A stretch of DNA of 46,774 nucleotides from positions 1 through 46,774 of the forward strand of contig CASFIQ010000047.1 in assembly GCA_949294785.1 (NCBI GenBank), read 5' to 3'. This document shows, in pieces, positions 10,014 to 41,448 of this stretch. A program made the translations under genes and the position numbers. Within the stretch, counting starts at the first letter, position 1, and the number at the start of each line of letters is the position of its first letter. Under the pieces are notes generated by a model. It was not told the origin of the DNA. It saw only the letters and a list, made by a program, of their open reading frames with translations, and made no database searches. This stretch comes from an uncultured Collinsella sp. (lineage in GTDB: Bacteria; Actinomycetota; Coriobacteriia; Coriobacteriales; Coriobacteriaceae).

Positions 10014-11261
10014 GTGGCAAGTCGCGTCTGCCTGGTCCATTACCATGAGATCGGGCTGAAGGGCAAGAACCGAGCTCACTTCGAGCGCATCCTCATGGAT
10101 TCCATCAAGGCGGCCCTGGCCGCCTTTTCCGTGTCGTGCTGTACGCGCATATCCGGTCATATCCTGGTCACCTTCTCGGTTGCCGGGGAGGCGGAGCGCG
10201 CGCTCGAGGTGATTCGGCGCGTACCCGGCGTGGCGCGCGTCTCGCTTGCCTATCATACGAACCGCGAGCCGCACGAGTATTGCCAGGCGGCCGTCCGCGC
10301 GCTTGGTTCCTCGGGCGAGTTCTCGACGTTCAAGGTCCATGCTAAGCGCTCGAACACCGATTACGAACTTCATTCGCTCGATATCAACAGACTCGTCGGC
10401 GCGGCCCTGTGCGAGTCGTTCCCAGATAAGCTCGTGCGAATGCGCGATCCCGACCGCACCGTGAACGTGCTCGTGGTGCAGGGGAGCGTGTACGTCTACG
10501 CGAAGAGCATCCGCGGTGTCGGGGGCCTTCCTGTAGGAAGCGCCGGCAAGGTTTGCTGCCTGCTGTCGTCGGGTATCGACTCGCCGGTCGCCACCTGGCT
10601 GCTCGCGCGCCGCGGGGCCGTGTGCGTCCCGGTCCACTTCTCGGGACGGCCGCAGACTGCGGATACGAGCGAATACCTGGTGCAGGATATCATTCGCCAA
10701 CTTGCCCCGGCGATTCAGATCGGGCGCCTCTACGTGGTTCCCTTCGGCGACGCCCAGCGCGAGATTTCGCTCGCGTGCCCCAACAACCTCCGCGTGATCA
10801 TGTATCGTCGCATCATGTACGCGGTCACCGAGCGCATCGCGCGCATCGAGGGTGCGAAGGCTATCGTGACCGGTGAGTCCCTGGGCCAGGTCGCTTCGCA
10901 GACCCTCGAGAACATCATGGCGGTGAACGAGGTCGTAACGCTTCCCGTGTTCCGACCGCTGATCGGCTCGGACAAGCAGGAGATCATCGCGCGCGCGGAG
11001 GAGATCGGCACCTACGACATCAGCTGCGAGACCGCTCCGGACTGCTGCACGCTGTTCATGCCGCGCCGTCCCGAGACGCATGCCAAGCTCGATGACGTCC
11101 ATGCCGCGTGGGAGGCCTTCGATCACGATGCGATGATCGATGCGCTCGTGGAGAACGTCGAGTACATCGATTTCGAGAGCTCGAGCTATCATCGTCCTCG
11201 AAGCCTGCGCGAGGTGCACGACACGCTGTTGCCTCGAATGAAAAGACTGTCCGACCGCTGA
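10014..11261 (+). CDS. thiI: tRNA 4-thiouridine synthase ThiI
   Basis: Transfers sulfur to U8 of tRNA (a near-UV sensor) and in many bacteria also to the thiazole pathway through ThiS. Product 415 residues, GTG start touching the rpoZ stop. Order: N-terminal ferredoxin-like and THUMP domain (to about residue 165), then a PP-loop ATPase with SSGIDSPVA at 185-193. Cys338 and a CC pair at 344-345 near the end of the ATPase domain are candidate sulfur relay residues. There is no rhodanese domain, as in Bacillus-type ThiI, so a partner cysteine desulfurase elsewhere is expected. Confidence 0.95.
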   Translation: MASRVCLVHYHEIGLKGKNRAHFERILMDSIKAALAAFSVSCCTRISGHILVTFSVAGEAERALEVIRRVPGVARVSLAYHTNREPHEYCQAAVRALGSSGEFSTFKVHAKRSNTDYELHSLDINRLVGAALCESFPDKLVRMRDPDRTVNVLVVQGSVYVYAKSIRGVGGLPVGSAGKVCCLLSSGIDSPVATWLLARRGAVCVPVHFSGRPQTADTSEYLVQDIIRQLAPAIQIGRLYVVPFGDAQREISLACPNNLRVIMYRRIMYAVTERIARIEGAKAIVTGESLGQVASQTLENIMAVNEVVTLPVFRPLIGSDKQEIIARAEEIGTYDISCETAPDCCTLFMPRRPETHAKLDDVHAAWEAFDHDAMIDALVENVEYIDFESSSYHRPRSLREVHDTLLPRMKRLSDR

Positions 11262-11291: not shown

Positions 11292-11319
11292 GTCAGATCT
11301 CTGTCAGAGATTTGTCAGA
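11292..11319 (+). repeat. Three GTCAGA direct repeats at exact 11-bp spacing before comEA
   Basis: GTCAGA begins at 11292, 11303 and 11314, so all three copies fall on the same DNA face. The last copy ends 75 bp before the comEA start. The same element, two copies 11 bp apart, occurs before recA (40229 and 40240). A six-base inverted repeat ATCTCT-GTC-AGAGAT (11297-11311) overlaps the array. Direct repeats with an 11-bp period are typical of OmpR/PhoB-family operators and close to those of LytTR regulators. Operator function is inference. Confidence 0.6.
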
Positions 11320-11354
11320 CGTGCCATCGGTATTTCGATTTCCTTGAGAACAAG

Positions 11355-11389
11355 CCGCCCCTCGATGCCACGATGGCTTTGAGGGGTGG
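11355..11389 (+). promoter_or_regulatory. Hairpin that covers the comEA ribosome-binding site
   Basis: CCGCCCCTC (11355-11363) pairs with GAGGGGTGG (11381-11389) with one G-T pair, and an inner GCCA/TGGC stem extends it. The 3' arm contains GAGGGG, the only good RBS of comEA. No T-run follows, so translation control is more likely than termination. Confidence 0.5.
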
Positions 11390-11394
11390 TTGCT

Positions 11395-12150
11395 ATGGCT
11401 CAATGTGAAGGACCGTCGGTACTGCGACGCTTGCTGCTACGGGTCTCCCAAATCGGTCGTATGAGGACGATCTTGCTCGCGTCGGGTACGGTAGTCATCC
11501 TCGCGAGCCTCGCGATCTCCTGGTCCGCAGGAAGCTCTGTCGGTCGGGCGATTCTTATCAGGCATGGGGAGGGCGCTGCCCTCGAGGATGCAGATGATTC
11601 GGGTGCCACATGGGATGACGGCGATGGGGAGCCTGCGCGCGCGGCCGATTCGCCGAAGGCAGATTCCGATGATCTGGCCGCAGATGTCGTTTCTGACGAC
11701 GGCACCGTCATCATCGATGTAGACGGCGCCGTCATCACACCGGAGGTATACGAGCTTCCCGATGGCAGCCGCGTTCAGGATGCCATCGATGCCGCGGGAG
11801 GTCTCGCGACCGATGCGGATGTGGCGCGCGTCAACCGGGCTGAGCGTCTTATCGACGGGGCGAAGCTCCTGATTCCGCGCGTTGGGGAGCAGGCCGCAGA
11901 CCTTACGGCAGAAGGCCAGATCGGAGTTTCCGATTCCTCGACCGGTGCAATGGGGACGGGGTTGGTGAACATCAACCAGGCGGGTGCGGACGAGCTCGAC
12001 GCGCTGCCCGGGATAGGGCCTGCGACGGCCGAGAAGATCGTCTCCGATCGCGAGCAGAACGGACCGTTTCTCGCGATCGAGGATCTTATGAGGGTGAGCG
12101 GGATCGGCGAGAAGAAGTTCGCGGAGCTCCAAGGTCTCATATGCGTATGA
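11395..12150 (+). CDS. comEA: ComEA: competence DNA receptor with helix-hairpin-helix
   Basis: Membrane-bound double-stranded DNA receptor for natural transformation. Product 251 residues from ATG 11395, 8 bases after GAGGGG; a GTG nine bases earlier would overlap that RBS. Order: short basic cytoplasmic tail, one membrane helix (about residues 25-45), an acidic spacer, an SLBB-like domain (TPEVYELPDGSRVQDAI region, about 115-165), and a C-terminal double helix-hairpin-helix (VNINQAGADELDALPGIG, then DLMRVSGIGEKKFAEL). Overlaps comEC by 10 bp. The upstream GTCAGA array and RBS hairpin suggest tight control. Confidence 0.93.
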   Translation: MAQCEGPSVLRRLLLRVSQIGRMRTILLASGTVVILASLAISWSAGSSVGRAILIRHGEGAALEDADDSGATWDDGDGEPARAADSPKADSDDLAADVVSDDGTVIIDVDGAVITPEVYELPDGSRVQDAIDAAGGLATDADVARVNRAERLIDGAKLLIPRVGEQAADLTAEGQIGVSDSSTGAMGTGLVNINQAGADELDALPGIGPATAEKIVSDREQNGPFLAIEDLMRVSGIGEKKFAELQGLICV

Positions 12151-14528
12151 GAAGCGTCGCACTCCGATTGGGAGCGGAGCTCCCGCCTCGCCCCTATATC
12201 CCGCCGCTCGCAGCGGGGGCTTTGGGCGCGATCATCGCTTCAGCCGCGATGATGGAGTCGGGATGGCACCGCTATCTCGATGAAGGGCCGCAAGCGGCGA
12301 CGTTCGCCCCGATTCCCCTGGCGATCGCGCTCGCGCTCATGTCGGGTAGCGTGCTTCTATGCGTGCGGTTGCTTTCGGCTCGGTCTTCGATGGACGCGCG
12401 TGCCGTGCCGGGAGGACGTGTGCGGGCGCTGCGGACGCTGTCGTGGCTCGCCTTCGGGATCTTGCTGGCGGGCGCCTCGGCGTCGATTGAGCTCGATGCC
12501 CGCTCGCGCTCGCTATCCGATGCCTCATCGTCGTCTTTGTACGGATACTCCTTCCGGGTTGTGGGCGATCCGTCCGATACGAGGTTCGGATTCCGTTCAA
12601 CGGCCTCGATGCGCTCCGATCGCGGTATCGAGGTCGCGTTCGTCGAGGTCTCGAGCGACGTCAGGCTCGAGGCGGGTGAATCGGTTCGGCTTGTGGGCCG
12701 GTTCGAGCGGTTCGAGGCGAGCGATTGGGCCCGGGGATCGTTCATGGGCGGCGCGGTCGGCACCGTGTCGGCGGTGTCGATTACCGAGAGGGCGAGCCCG
12801 GAATATCCGATTACGCGCGCTCGAGACGCGGTCTTGCAGCGTATCGATCCCGGTCGCGACGAGGTGCGGGCCCTTCTGGCGGGGATCGTCTGCGGACGCA
12901 CCACCGAGCTATCGGGAACCGATGCCGAAACTGCGTTCTCCGAAACGGGGACCACGCACCTCATCGCGGTATCCGGAAGCCATCTCGCGCTCGTCTCCGC
13001 GCTGGTGGGGATCGCGCTCGGGCGGGTTCCGGTGAGCGGGATGGCGCGCGCCGTGACCCTTTCGTGCGCCATGGGGGCATATGTCCTTTTCACGGGCGGT
13101 GCCCCGTCGGCGGTCAGGTCGCTGGTGATGGTGACGTGCACGCTCGCTTCCCGCCTAGGGGGCAGAAGACCGCATGGCCTGACCGGACTCTCGATTGCGG
13201 TGATGGCCCTCGTGACCCTAGAACCGGGCGTCGTGTTCGATCTCGGGTTTCAGCTCTCGGCGCTGAGCGTCGCCTCGATTCTTGTGTTCGGCCGCTACCT
13301 CGAGTTCGCCGCGCTCTCATTCGGCGCGCCGCGTGCGCTCGCTGCGGCGCTCTCTTGCACGCTCGCGGCATTGTGGGCGACCATTCCGGTCACACTTCCG
13401 ATTTTCGGCGAGCTCTCGCTTATCTCGCCTGTTGCCAATCTCGTTCTGGGGCCCGTTATGAGCGCGCTGTTGGTGGCGGGCATCTTGGCCGTTCCCATGG
13501 CGACGATCTTCCCGAGCCTGGAGTTCCTGCTTTCCCCGCTCGATGCCCTCGCGCGCATCTCGATCTTCCTTGCGGACGCCTTCGCGGCAGTCCCTTTCGC
13601 CTCCATTGCCGTGGATGCTTCCGATGGAGCGCCCCTGATCTATCTGTTGGCCGCTCTATCGGCCGTCATCGTGTATCGGATTTGGAAGATGCCCGCGCGA
13701 CGATCGGTCGTCGCGCTAACGGGTGCGGTCGCCCTTATCGTCGTGTCGAACCATATCTACTGGCATCGGTTCGCCCCGCCGGAGCTGATCGTACTCGATG
13801 TGGGACAGGGCGACTCGATCCTGATTCGCGATGGCGCTGAGCGGCTGCTGGTCGACTGCGGGGTCGATGGGTCGTGCGCGCGGGCCCTGGCGCGCAACCA
13901 CGTAGGCGCGTTGGACGCGATCGTGATCACGCACTGGGACGCAGACCATTGGGGCGGGCTGCCCGAGGTGCTCGATCAGGTGCCCGTTGAGCGCATCGTC
14001 GTTCCGCGCGGTGCCGCGGACAAGGTGCCGCGGGAAGCGCGCTCTCTCGATCTTCCGGACATCATCGAAGTCGATTGCGGGGATATGTTGCAGACAGGAT
14101 CGTTCGCCTGCGAGGTCGTCTGGCCGCGGGAAGCGGTCGTCGAGTCGGGAAACAGCGAGTCTCTGGTGCTCGATGTCGCCTATGCCGGGGGCGCGAGCGG
14201 GCTCTCGGTGCTGCTCACCGGTGACACCGAGGCAGATCAAGCGGAGCGATACCTTGATGCGGTGGGCGATACCGATGTGCTGAAGCTCGGTCATCATGGT
14301 TCCGCGGCGTCGTTGGACGAGAAGATGATGTCGGCGCTCGATCCCGCGGTATGCATCGCGAGCGCGGGGGAGGGGAACCGATACGGGCATCCCGCGCCCA
14401 GTATCATCGAGATCGTCGAGGATTTCGGTGCCCGCTTCCTCTGCACGATCGATGCCGGGGACGTCTCCATCGCCCCGGCACAAGGCGGACTCAAGATCGC
14501 GACGCAGCATCATCTGGAGGTAGAATAG
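12141..14528 (+). CDS. comEC: ComEC: DNA-uptake channel with metallo-beta-lactamase domain
   Basis: Forms the inner-membrane channel that imports one DNA strand during transformation; the beta-lactamase-like domain is thought to degrade the other. Product 795 residues, full length for the family. Order: two to three N-terminal membrane helices, an OB-like periplasmic section, the Competence domain with many helices (about residues 235-540, including HLIAVSGSHLALVSAL), and a C-terminal metallo-hydrolase with VITHWDADHWGG and LKLGHHGSAAS metal motifs. Trp replaces the usual Pro/Thr in the THxDADH block; the metal ligands are kept. Starts inside comEA's end. Confidence 0.95.
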   Translation: MRMRSVALRLGAELPPRPYIPPLAAGALGAIIASAAMMESGWHRYLDEGPQAATFAPIPLAIALALMSGSVLLCVRLLSARSSMDARAVPGGRVRALRTLSWLAFGILLAGASASIELDARSRSLSDASSSSLYGYSFRVVGDPSDTRFGFRSTASMRSDRGIEVAFVEVSSDVRLEAGESVRLVGRFERFEASDWARGSFMGGAVGTVSAVSITERASPEYPITRARDAVLQRIDPGRDEVRALLAGIVCGRTTELSGTDAETAFSETGTTHLIAVSGSHLALVSALVGIALGRVPVSGMARAVTLSCAMGAYVLFTGGAPSAVRSLVMVTCTLASRLGGRRPHGLTGLSIAVMALVTLEPGVVFDLGFQLSALSVASILVFGRYLEFAALSFGAPRALAAALSCTLAALWATIPVTLPIFGELSLISPVANLVLGPVMSALLVAGILAVPMATIFPSLEFLLSPLDALARISIFLADAFAAVPFASIAVDASDGAPLIYLLAALSAVIVYRIWKMPARRSVVALTGAVALIVVSNHIYWHRFAPPELIVLDVGQGDSILIRDGAERLLVDCGVDGSCARALARNHVGALDAIVITHWDADHWGGLPEVLDQVPVERIVVPRGAADKVPREARSLDLPDIIEVDCGDMLQTGSFACEVVWPREAVVESGNSESLVLDVAYAGGASGLSVLLTGDTEADQAERYLDAVGDTDVLKLGHHGSAASLDEKMMSALDPAVCIASAGEGNRYGHPAPSIIEIVEDFGARFLCTIDAGDVSIAPAQGGLKIATQHHLEVE

Positions 14529-40228: not shown

Positions 40229-40267
40229 GTCAGATACGCGTCAGATTCTTTCGAATCCATCTCAGAT
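40229..40267 (+). repeat. GTCAGA direct repeats before recA
   Basis: GTCAGAT at 40229 and 40240 are exactly 11 bp apart, and CTCAGATT at 40261 follows two helix turns later. The element matches the triple array before comEA. It lies 27 bp before the recA -35, and close upstream of a second -10-like hexamer TAGGAT (40276-40281). The surrounding 40090-40290 is unusually AT-rich for this window. Operator function is inference. Confidence 0.55.
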
Positions 40268-40293
40268 TACGGCTTTAGGATAAATCCTAACAG

Positions 40294-40322
40294 TTGACCG
40301 CGAACAGCTGTTCGTGTAGTAT
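40294..40322 (+). promoter_or_regulatory. recA promoter
   Basis: TTGACC (40294-40299) and TAGTAT (40317-40322) with a 17-bp spacer; the ATG follows 29 bp after the -10. The LexA-type box lies inside the spacer. Confidence 0.8.
40301..40314 (+). promoter_or_regulatory. LexA (SOS) box of recA
   Basis: CGAACAGCTGTTCG is a perfect 14-bp palindrome and matches the Gram-positive and mycobacterial SOS core CGAAC-N4-GTTCG. It sits between -35 and -10, so LexA binding would block RNA polymerase. Confidence 0.9.
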
Positions 40323-40350: not shown

Positions 40351-41448
40351 ATGGCGAAGAGCACGGGTCAGACCAAGACGGTTCACGAGCGCACCACCGG
40401 CGAGGAGCGCGACAAGATGGTAAAGGCCACCGAGGCCGAGATCATCAAGAAGTTCGGTGCCGGTTCGATCATGAAGTTCGGCGACGGTGGACCCGACTTG
40501 GAGATTGAGGCGATTCCCACTGGCGCGCTCTCACTCGATGCCGCGCTCGGTATCGGTGGCGTTCCGCGCGGCCGCATCATCGAGATCTACGGACCGGAGT
40601 CCTCGGGTAAGACGACCCTTTCCCTCGAGATCCTCGCCGAGGCGCAGGCGCTCGGCGGCGTCGTGGCGTTCATCGACGCGGAGCACGCGCTTGACCCGGG
40701 ATACGCCTCACGCATCGGCGTCGATATCGACGAAGTGCTTATCTCTCAGCCCGATACCGGCGAACAGGCCCTCGAGATCTGCGACATGCTCGTTCGATCG
40801 GGTGCCATCGATGCCATCGTGATCGATTCGGTGGCGGCTCTCGTGCCGCGCGCCGAGATCGAGGGCGAAATCGGCGACAGCTCGGTCGGCCTACAGGCGC
40901 GCCTTATGAGTCAGGCGCTCAGAAAACTCGCCGGTTCGCTCGCGAAGTCCAAGACCACGTGCATCTTCATCAACCAACTTCGCGAGAAGATCGGTGTCAT
41001 GTTCGGTAACCCCGAGACCACCACGGGTGGTCGCGCGCTCAAGTTCTTCTCGACGGTGCGCATCGATATTCGCCGCGTAGACAGCATCAAGGTCAAGGAC
41101 GAGATCGTCGGAAATCGTGTTCGCGCGAAGGTGGTCAAGAACAAAGTCGCCGCACCGTTCAAGGTTGCCGAGTTCGACATCATGTACGGGACGGGCATCT
41201 CCAAGGAGGGCTCGATTATAGACATGGGTGTCGATTACGGCATCATCAAGAAATCCGGCGCCTGGTATAACTACGGTGACGACAAGCTCGGTCAAGGGCG
41301 CGAGGCCGCCAAGGAGTTCCTGCGCAAGAACCCCGATCTCATGGATGAGATCGAACATCGTGTTCGCGTCGCATGCGGACTCGAGCTCTCAGATGACCCC
41401 ATCGAGCTTGCTGACGAGACTCCGATCGACCAGGGTGCGTCCGCGTAA
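40351..41448 (+). CDS. recA: Recombinase RecA
   Basis: Strand-exchange ATPase and SOS co-protease. Product 365 residues from ATG 40351 after AGGAGG (earlier in-frame codons would lie inside the promoter). Walker A GPESSGKT at 81-88, [25 protein letters not shown], the [17 protein letters not shown] block in parts, and the C-terminal domain are all present. No intein. LexA box plus GTCAGA repeats upstream suggest both SOS and a second control. recX follows 6 bp later. Confidence 0.98.

Follow-up and report, generated by a model that had tools for sequence, protein, structure and literature searches.

The closest described systems are the SARP regulators of Streptomyces, including AfsR with its afs box, which carry an OmpR-like winged helix and a BTAD domain (PMC10936776, PMC4393881), and which bind direct repeats spaced by 11 or 22 bp, the 3' one standing 8 bp away from the -10 element (PMC4393881, PMC10936776). 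Large members of the family also contain a STAND/NOD ATPase and helical repeats; in AfsR the SARP domain is N-terminal, and the targets of the Streptomyces proteins are antibiotic clusters. MalT-type STAND activators similarly join a STAND ATPase and a repeat domain to a C-terminal DNA-binding domain, which in MalT is of the LuxR type. The competence regulons of Firmicutes, under ComK, ComX or ComE, include comEA-comEC, dprA, ssb, recA after cinA, and pilus genes. Among Actinomycetota, Micrococcus luteus displays Tad pilus-dependent competence involving comEA-comEC and Tad genes, and the papers describing it identify no regulator or operator and name no SARP (PMC8467076, PMC12849477, PMC4322843). 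A 2026 study of this organism states that the upstream signals and regulatory cascade of competence are still to be identified (PMC12849477), and, according to the M. luteus literature, little is known of competence control in Actinomycetota, making this an acknowledged gap. For Coriobacteriia, we found no report of competence control, of a competence operator or of transformation in the open-access literature, and in those parts of it that were available no SARP was tied to natural transformation; since coverage was of open-access papers, the novelty of the system described here is provisional.

In the window (the whole stretch of 46,774 nucleotides that was analysed), three forward-strand GTCAGA half-sites start at 11292, 11303 and 11314, a period of exactly 11 bp, and form an array (11292-11319) within the 133 bp that separate the thiI stop at 11261 from the comEA ATG at 11395, precisely as given in the first-pass annotation. 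The genes downstream on the same strand are comEA (11395-12150; TIGR01259, TIGR00426) and comEC (12141-14528; TIGR00361). Phased pairs with at most one mismatch were found 4 times in the window, compared to 0.17 expected from shuffles, while lone GTCAGA words were not enriched (15 observed, 24 expected), which locates the signal in the phased array and not in the hexamer.

The same pattern was then counted in the draft genome (G000; 1.97 Mb in 223 contigs, 86% complete). Rather than being scattered at random or falling inside genes, all 23 exact GTCAGA-N5-GTCAGA pairs were intergenic, although the stretches examined were 86% coding, and the reversed-pattern control gave 0 matches. Neighboring genes were called in the sequence around each site by a simple method based on codon usage, and were named by Pfam and NCBIfam. 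Exact pairs preceded comEA-comEC, recA-recX (directly 3' of cinA), rpsF-ssb-rpsR and the Tad-pilus genes cpaB-cpaE-tadA, and a one-mismatch pair preceded yraN-comM-dprA; com, pilus and recombination genes were those before which the first-pass annotation had proposed to look for matches. The arrays are common to comEA-comEC, dprA, ssb, recA and the Tad genes, as in natural competence; the gene set resembles those of the Firmicutes regulons, from which it is set apart, by description, by another regulator family and operator and by its Tad pilus target, and it shares comEA-comEC and Tad genes with M. luteus. The regulon also includes genes with no known competence role, namely prmC, a gene for a 1604-aa thioester/SpaA surface adhesin, and Phd-type antitoxin genes, one locus of which reads like an antitoxin with a PIN toxin. 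Exact pairs stood before the adhesin and toxin-antitoxin genes and before genes of a DUF559/MTES_1575-like family, and the gene of one large STAND protein was array-linked as well. Many arrays extend beyond two units, often to three to five half-sites; one common arrangement places a second pair 32 bp after the first (half-sites at 0, 11, 32 and 43), with a degenerate unit between them. One array (C109) sits between convergent genes, and some others (G000 Tad, C43, C129) are oriented away from the gene. Taken together, the arrays are almost certainly the operator of a genome-wide DNA-uptake/recombination regulon.

The comEA array was kept in relatives, with drift in the half-site sequence. Units upstream of comEA, all at 11-bp spacing, included GTCAGA/GTCAGA/GTTAGA, GTTAGA/GTTAGA/GTAAGA, GTTAGC/GTTAGA/GTTAGA and GCTAGA/GGAAGA/GTAAGG, and in most of the genomes where an array could be detected it started 99-105 bp from the comEA start codon. 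Strict GTCAGA conservation in all relatives was not seen, several congeners being without an exact pair, and the dialect shift from GTCAGA to GTTAGA became visible only after upstream regions were aligned. The weakest comEA arrays (e.g., G011 and G015) were individually not above shuffles, and some family members had a weak array or none at comEA or at the SARP gene described below. In the congener G005, which uses the GTTAGA dialect, there were 21 GTYAGA pairs (control, 0), and arrays preceded orthologues of comEA, recA, rpsF-ssb, yraN-comM, prmC, the STAND protein and others; a deoxyribonuclease IV gene was also a target. Lancefieldella rimae ATCC 49626, from another family of Coriobacteriales (Atopobiaceae), had 23 GTCARA pairs (control, 1), with arrays before comEA (103 bp from the start), recA, rpsF-ssb, yraN-comM, cpaB and its own SARP-type STAND protein, as well as a divergent prepilin peptidase gene, a SpaA surface protein gene and three DUF559-like genes. 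When the triple pattern was searched in a collection of named genomes, the matches listed were mostly in unrelated groups, and among them L. rimae alone was useful. In 150 genomes of the order, a relaxed triple pattern had few matches beyond the genus, one sister genus and the family of Lancefieldella, control matches were scattered, and the strict motif was rare in most other families.

The position of the arrays relative to promoters was evaluated in G000, G005 and L. rimae, over 43 arrays in which the last repeat was picked by a spacing rule that allowed degenerate units. In 12 of the 43, the distance from the last repeat to TAnnnT was exactly 9 bp, and none of the other offsets between 0 and 21 had more than 2 cases; the nominal probability of about 1e-14 is a guide only, since the spacing rule chose the last repeat and orthologous arrays are not fully independent. 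Judged by sequence, the array geometry is that of SARP promoters, with 11-bp direct repeats and a 3' repeat about 8 bp (here 9 bp) upstream of the -10, and differs from Streptomyces sites in having often three to five half-sites, in its GTCAGA/GTTAGA units, and in a distance to the -10 of 9 bp instead of 8. The main loose end is comEA itself, which has no clear -10 at the expected spacing: the sequence found there, GGTATT (11329-11334, forward strand, 9 bp beyond the last repeat), is a poor -10, and the start site of comEA transcription is therefore uncertain.

A candidate reader of the arrays is encoded in the same genome (G000, contig C68, 1992-5063). This protein of 1024 aa has an N-terminal STAND ATPase, helical repeats and, at about residues 765-1015, an OmpR-like winged helix followed by a BTAD domain, the order that identifies a SARP by Pfam, alignment and Foldseek matches to AfsR and EmbR. 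BTAD scored 34.2 bits against a Pfam cut-off of 22.1, and Trans_reg_C fell below its own cut-off. The AlphaFold model (pLDDT 82.6) matched the promoter-bound SARP domain of AfsR (8hvr; E 1.8e-6, target TM 0.79), then EmbR, then, weakly, MalT (8bob), with 8k60 also matched. Because its SARP domain is C-terminal, and not N-terminal as in AfsR, we regard it as a SARP-domain protein that is not an AfsR orthologue by architecture; its layout is that of MalT-type activators, with a SARP domain in place of the LuxR-type one. No other BTAD protein was found in this genome, although a second reader could be missing from the data since the genome is a draft. An orthologue was present in all 24 of the relatives of the family that were searched, and the C-terminal part was matched in most other families tested. 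An array preceded its gene in G000, G002, G003, G005, G008 and L. rimae, with variants in G006 and G007, and in every case the repeats read away from the gene; because of this orientation, the role of the array here, and of those at the G000 Tad genes, C43 and C129, may differ. The array at its own gene, its uniqueness, its conservation and the promoter geometry together make it likely that this AfsR/SARP-type STAND protein reads the arrays, and the geometry, the sole basis for this point, suggests that it activates rather than represses.

The first-pass annotation had proposed the operator of a competence regulator new to this group, read by an OmpR/PhoB-type or a LytTR (ComE-like) protein. 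The competence-type regulon and the lack of any description in the literature covered support the first part, and neither of the two refuting outcomes that it had named was seen, the sites being neither random nor inside genes and the comEA array being conserved in relatives; the choice of readers found no support. OmpR/PhoB-type regulators bind direct repeats with an 11-bp phase and can replace the -35 element, as may happen here, and the genome encodes nine OmpR-type DNA-binding domains, so one of these two-component response regulators might read the arrays, with the SARP gene as merely one target. We consider this unlikely, since no array, even with one mismatch, was present in the 39 kb around the nine domains, while an array precedes the SARP gene in several species and two families. 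The half-site also differs from that of the Pho box, and no response-regulator gene of this type was array-linked. A response regulator encoded locally was rejected as the reader, as the window's contig has no OmpR-type domain. Nevertheless, the earlier guess of OmpR-like DNA binding was close, because SARPs carry an OmpR-like winged helix.

Combining these results, our main reading is that the arrays are the operator of an uptake/recombination regulon, read by an AfsR/SARP-type activator with feedback on itself, and that comEA is additionally gated by an RNA hairpin; we give this a probability of roughly 0.78. All of the evidence is computational, consisting of the arrays, their placement and conservation, the -10 spacing, the protein family and the hairpin, and from it we infer protein binding, activation and a sensed signal, and, from the gene list, that cells become competent. 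Mechanistically, we propose that the STAND and repeat part would perceive a signal and thereby free the SARP domain, and SARP protomers would then bind side by side on the same face of the DNA, one per 11-bp repeat, replacing the -35 element and recruiting RNA polymerase to the -10 located 9 bp past the last repeat. The comEA-comEC, recA, ssb, yraN-comM-dprA and Tad-pilus genes would be switched on together, the array at the regulator's own gene would provide feedback on the regulator, and translation of comEA would be under further control by a hairpin in which the ribosome-binding site is hidden. On balance, we also favor the broader proposal that the STAND-SARP protein is a master competence activator in at least two Coriobacteriales families and the first transcriptional switch of transformation to be identified in Actinomycetota, with an operator dialect that drifts while its spacing is held, and with an RNA lock on comEA. 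If correct, the SARP family would extend beyond antibiotic clusters, and the system could explain gene exchange among Coriobacteriia. The question is directly testable, given that the targets and the operator code come together with one candidate regulator and one sequenced, named strain (L. rimae ATCC 49626).

The array before recA also bears on the function of the regulon. The first-pass annotation had placed the triple element there as well; an exact pair is present on the forward strand (40229-40245, starts at 40229 and 40240), about 106-122 bp upstream of the recA ATG at 40351, and it is followed not by a third perfect copy, but by degenerate units (40250-40266), TTCGAA at 40250-40255 and CTCAGA at 40261-40266. 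A predicted -10, TAGGAT (40276-40281), lies 9 bp beyond the last unit. The array is found at recA in G005 (L214) and L. rimae (L297) too, and the 9-bp-spaced -10 was present in all three genomes (TAGAAT in the latter two). We take recA (40351-41448, forward strand; TIGR02012) to start at ATG 40351, the longest open reading frame beginning at 40294. In the three genomes (window 40276-40322, L214 and L297) recA apparently has two promoters, one of them array-linked. The other, at 40294-40322 in the window, consists of TTGACC (40294), a LexA-box-like GAACAGCTGTTC (40302-40313) and TAGTAT (40317), with GAAC-N4-GTTC between the -35 and the -10, and its layout is identical in G005 and L. rimae.

Since the array targets include recA, ssb, toxin-antitoxin genes and, in G005, the deoxyribonuclease IV gene, the regulon might instead serve DNA damage or stress, with the com genes as passengers. 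This has little chance of being right, because comEA-comEC, comM-dprA, the Tad pilus and prepilin peptidase are DNA-uptake functions, and because in three genomes a separate promoter with a LexA box stands next to the array at recA, so that damage control is already provided.

The LytTR alternative, in which a ComE-like regulator reads the arrays, is very unlikely. In its favor, competence in streptococci is under LytTR control, the C41 array has a LytTR response regulator nearby, and the corresponding array of G005 sits beside a LytTR protein and a membrane partner. Against it, a LytTR site comprises two repeats separated by about two helical turns (21-22 bp), which arrays of three to five 11-bp units fit neither in period nor in number, an array precedes the AfsR/SARP-type STAND gene, the promoter geometry fits SARPs, and the DUF559-like gene behind the array in G005 and G003 accounts for the proximity to LytTR genes. 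Although several copies lie outside classic competence genes and the C109 array sits between convergent genes, a dispersed repeat family or chance without a regulatory role is a negligible prospect; chance is rejected on the window shuffles, the genome control of 0 and the intergenic location of all 23 pairs, and both readings are contradicted by orthologous placement in three species and two families, by drift with held spacing and by the fixed -10 spacing.

With respect to the second gate of the proposed SARP-activated system, the comEA leader contains a predicted RNA hairpin (11354-11390, forward strand; -30.1 kcal/mol, z -3.96) whose 3' arm includes the ribosome-binding sequence GAGGGGTG (11381-11388). 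The ribosome-binding core was paired in 18 leaders, fully in most and partly in three, while the pairing letters varied among genomes (CG, TA, AT and GC at one position, for example); these pairings were scored fold by fold, a weaker approach than testing covariation on an alignment, and the hairpin arms fell out of register in a MAFFT alignment of the comEA leaders. Six representative leaders from the family folded far better than shuffles, and the L. rimae leader did not clearly do so. No Rfam family matched the hairpin, which may be an independent RNA switch.

Several gene families recurred behind the arrays. The DUF559/MTES_1575-like paralogues, of about 350 aa and possible nucleases, were found behind arrays in this genome (L018, L020, L007, L032), in congeners (L206, L210, L222, L223, L229, L231) and in L. 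rimae (L277, L287, L290), and a structure search with this family gave nothing significant. Another family linked to arrays resembles AbiEi (PADLOC E 1e-7; L042:3061-4053, L212). The arrays point to these two little-known families as possible participants in transformation. Phd-type antitoxin and other toxin-antitoxin-like genes lay behind arrays in this genome and L. rimae (L048:2815-3198, L037, L281). Near rpsL, an array-bearing locus is adjoined by a LytTR response regulator (L039:136-852), and its G005 counterpart (L206:1356-2356) has a LytTR protein with a membrane partner beside the array. Finally, the triple arrays at L036:2650-2677 (C109, where the neighbors are convergent and no gene was called) and L041:2931-2958 (C43) have a common tail, GTCAGATGTGGAAAA, which resembles a DnaA box on the opposite strand.
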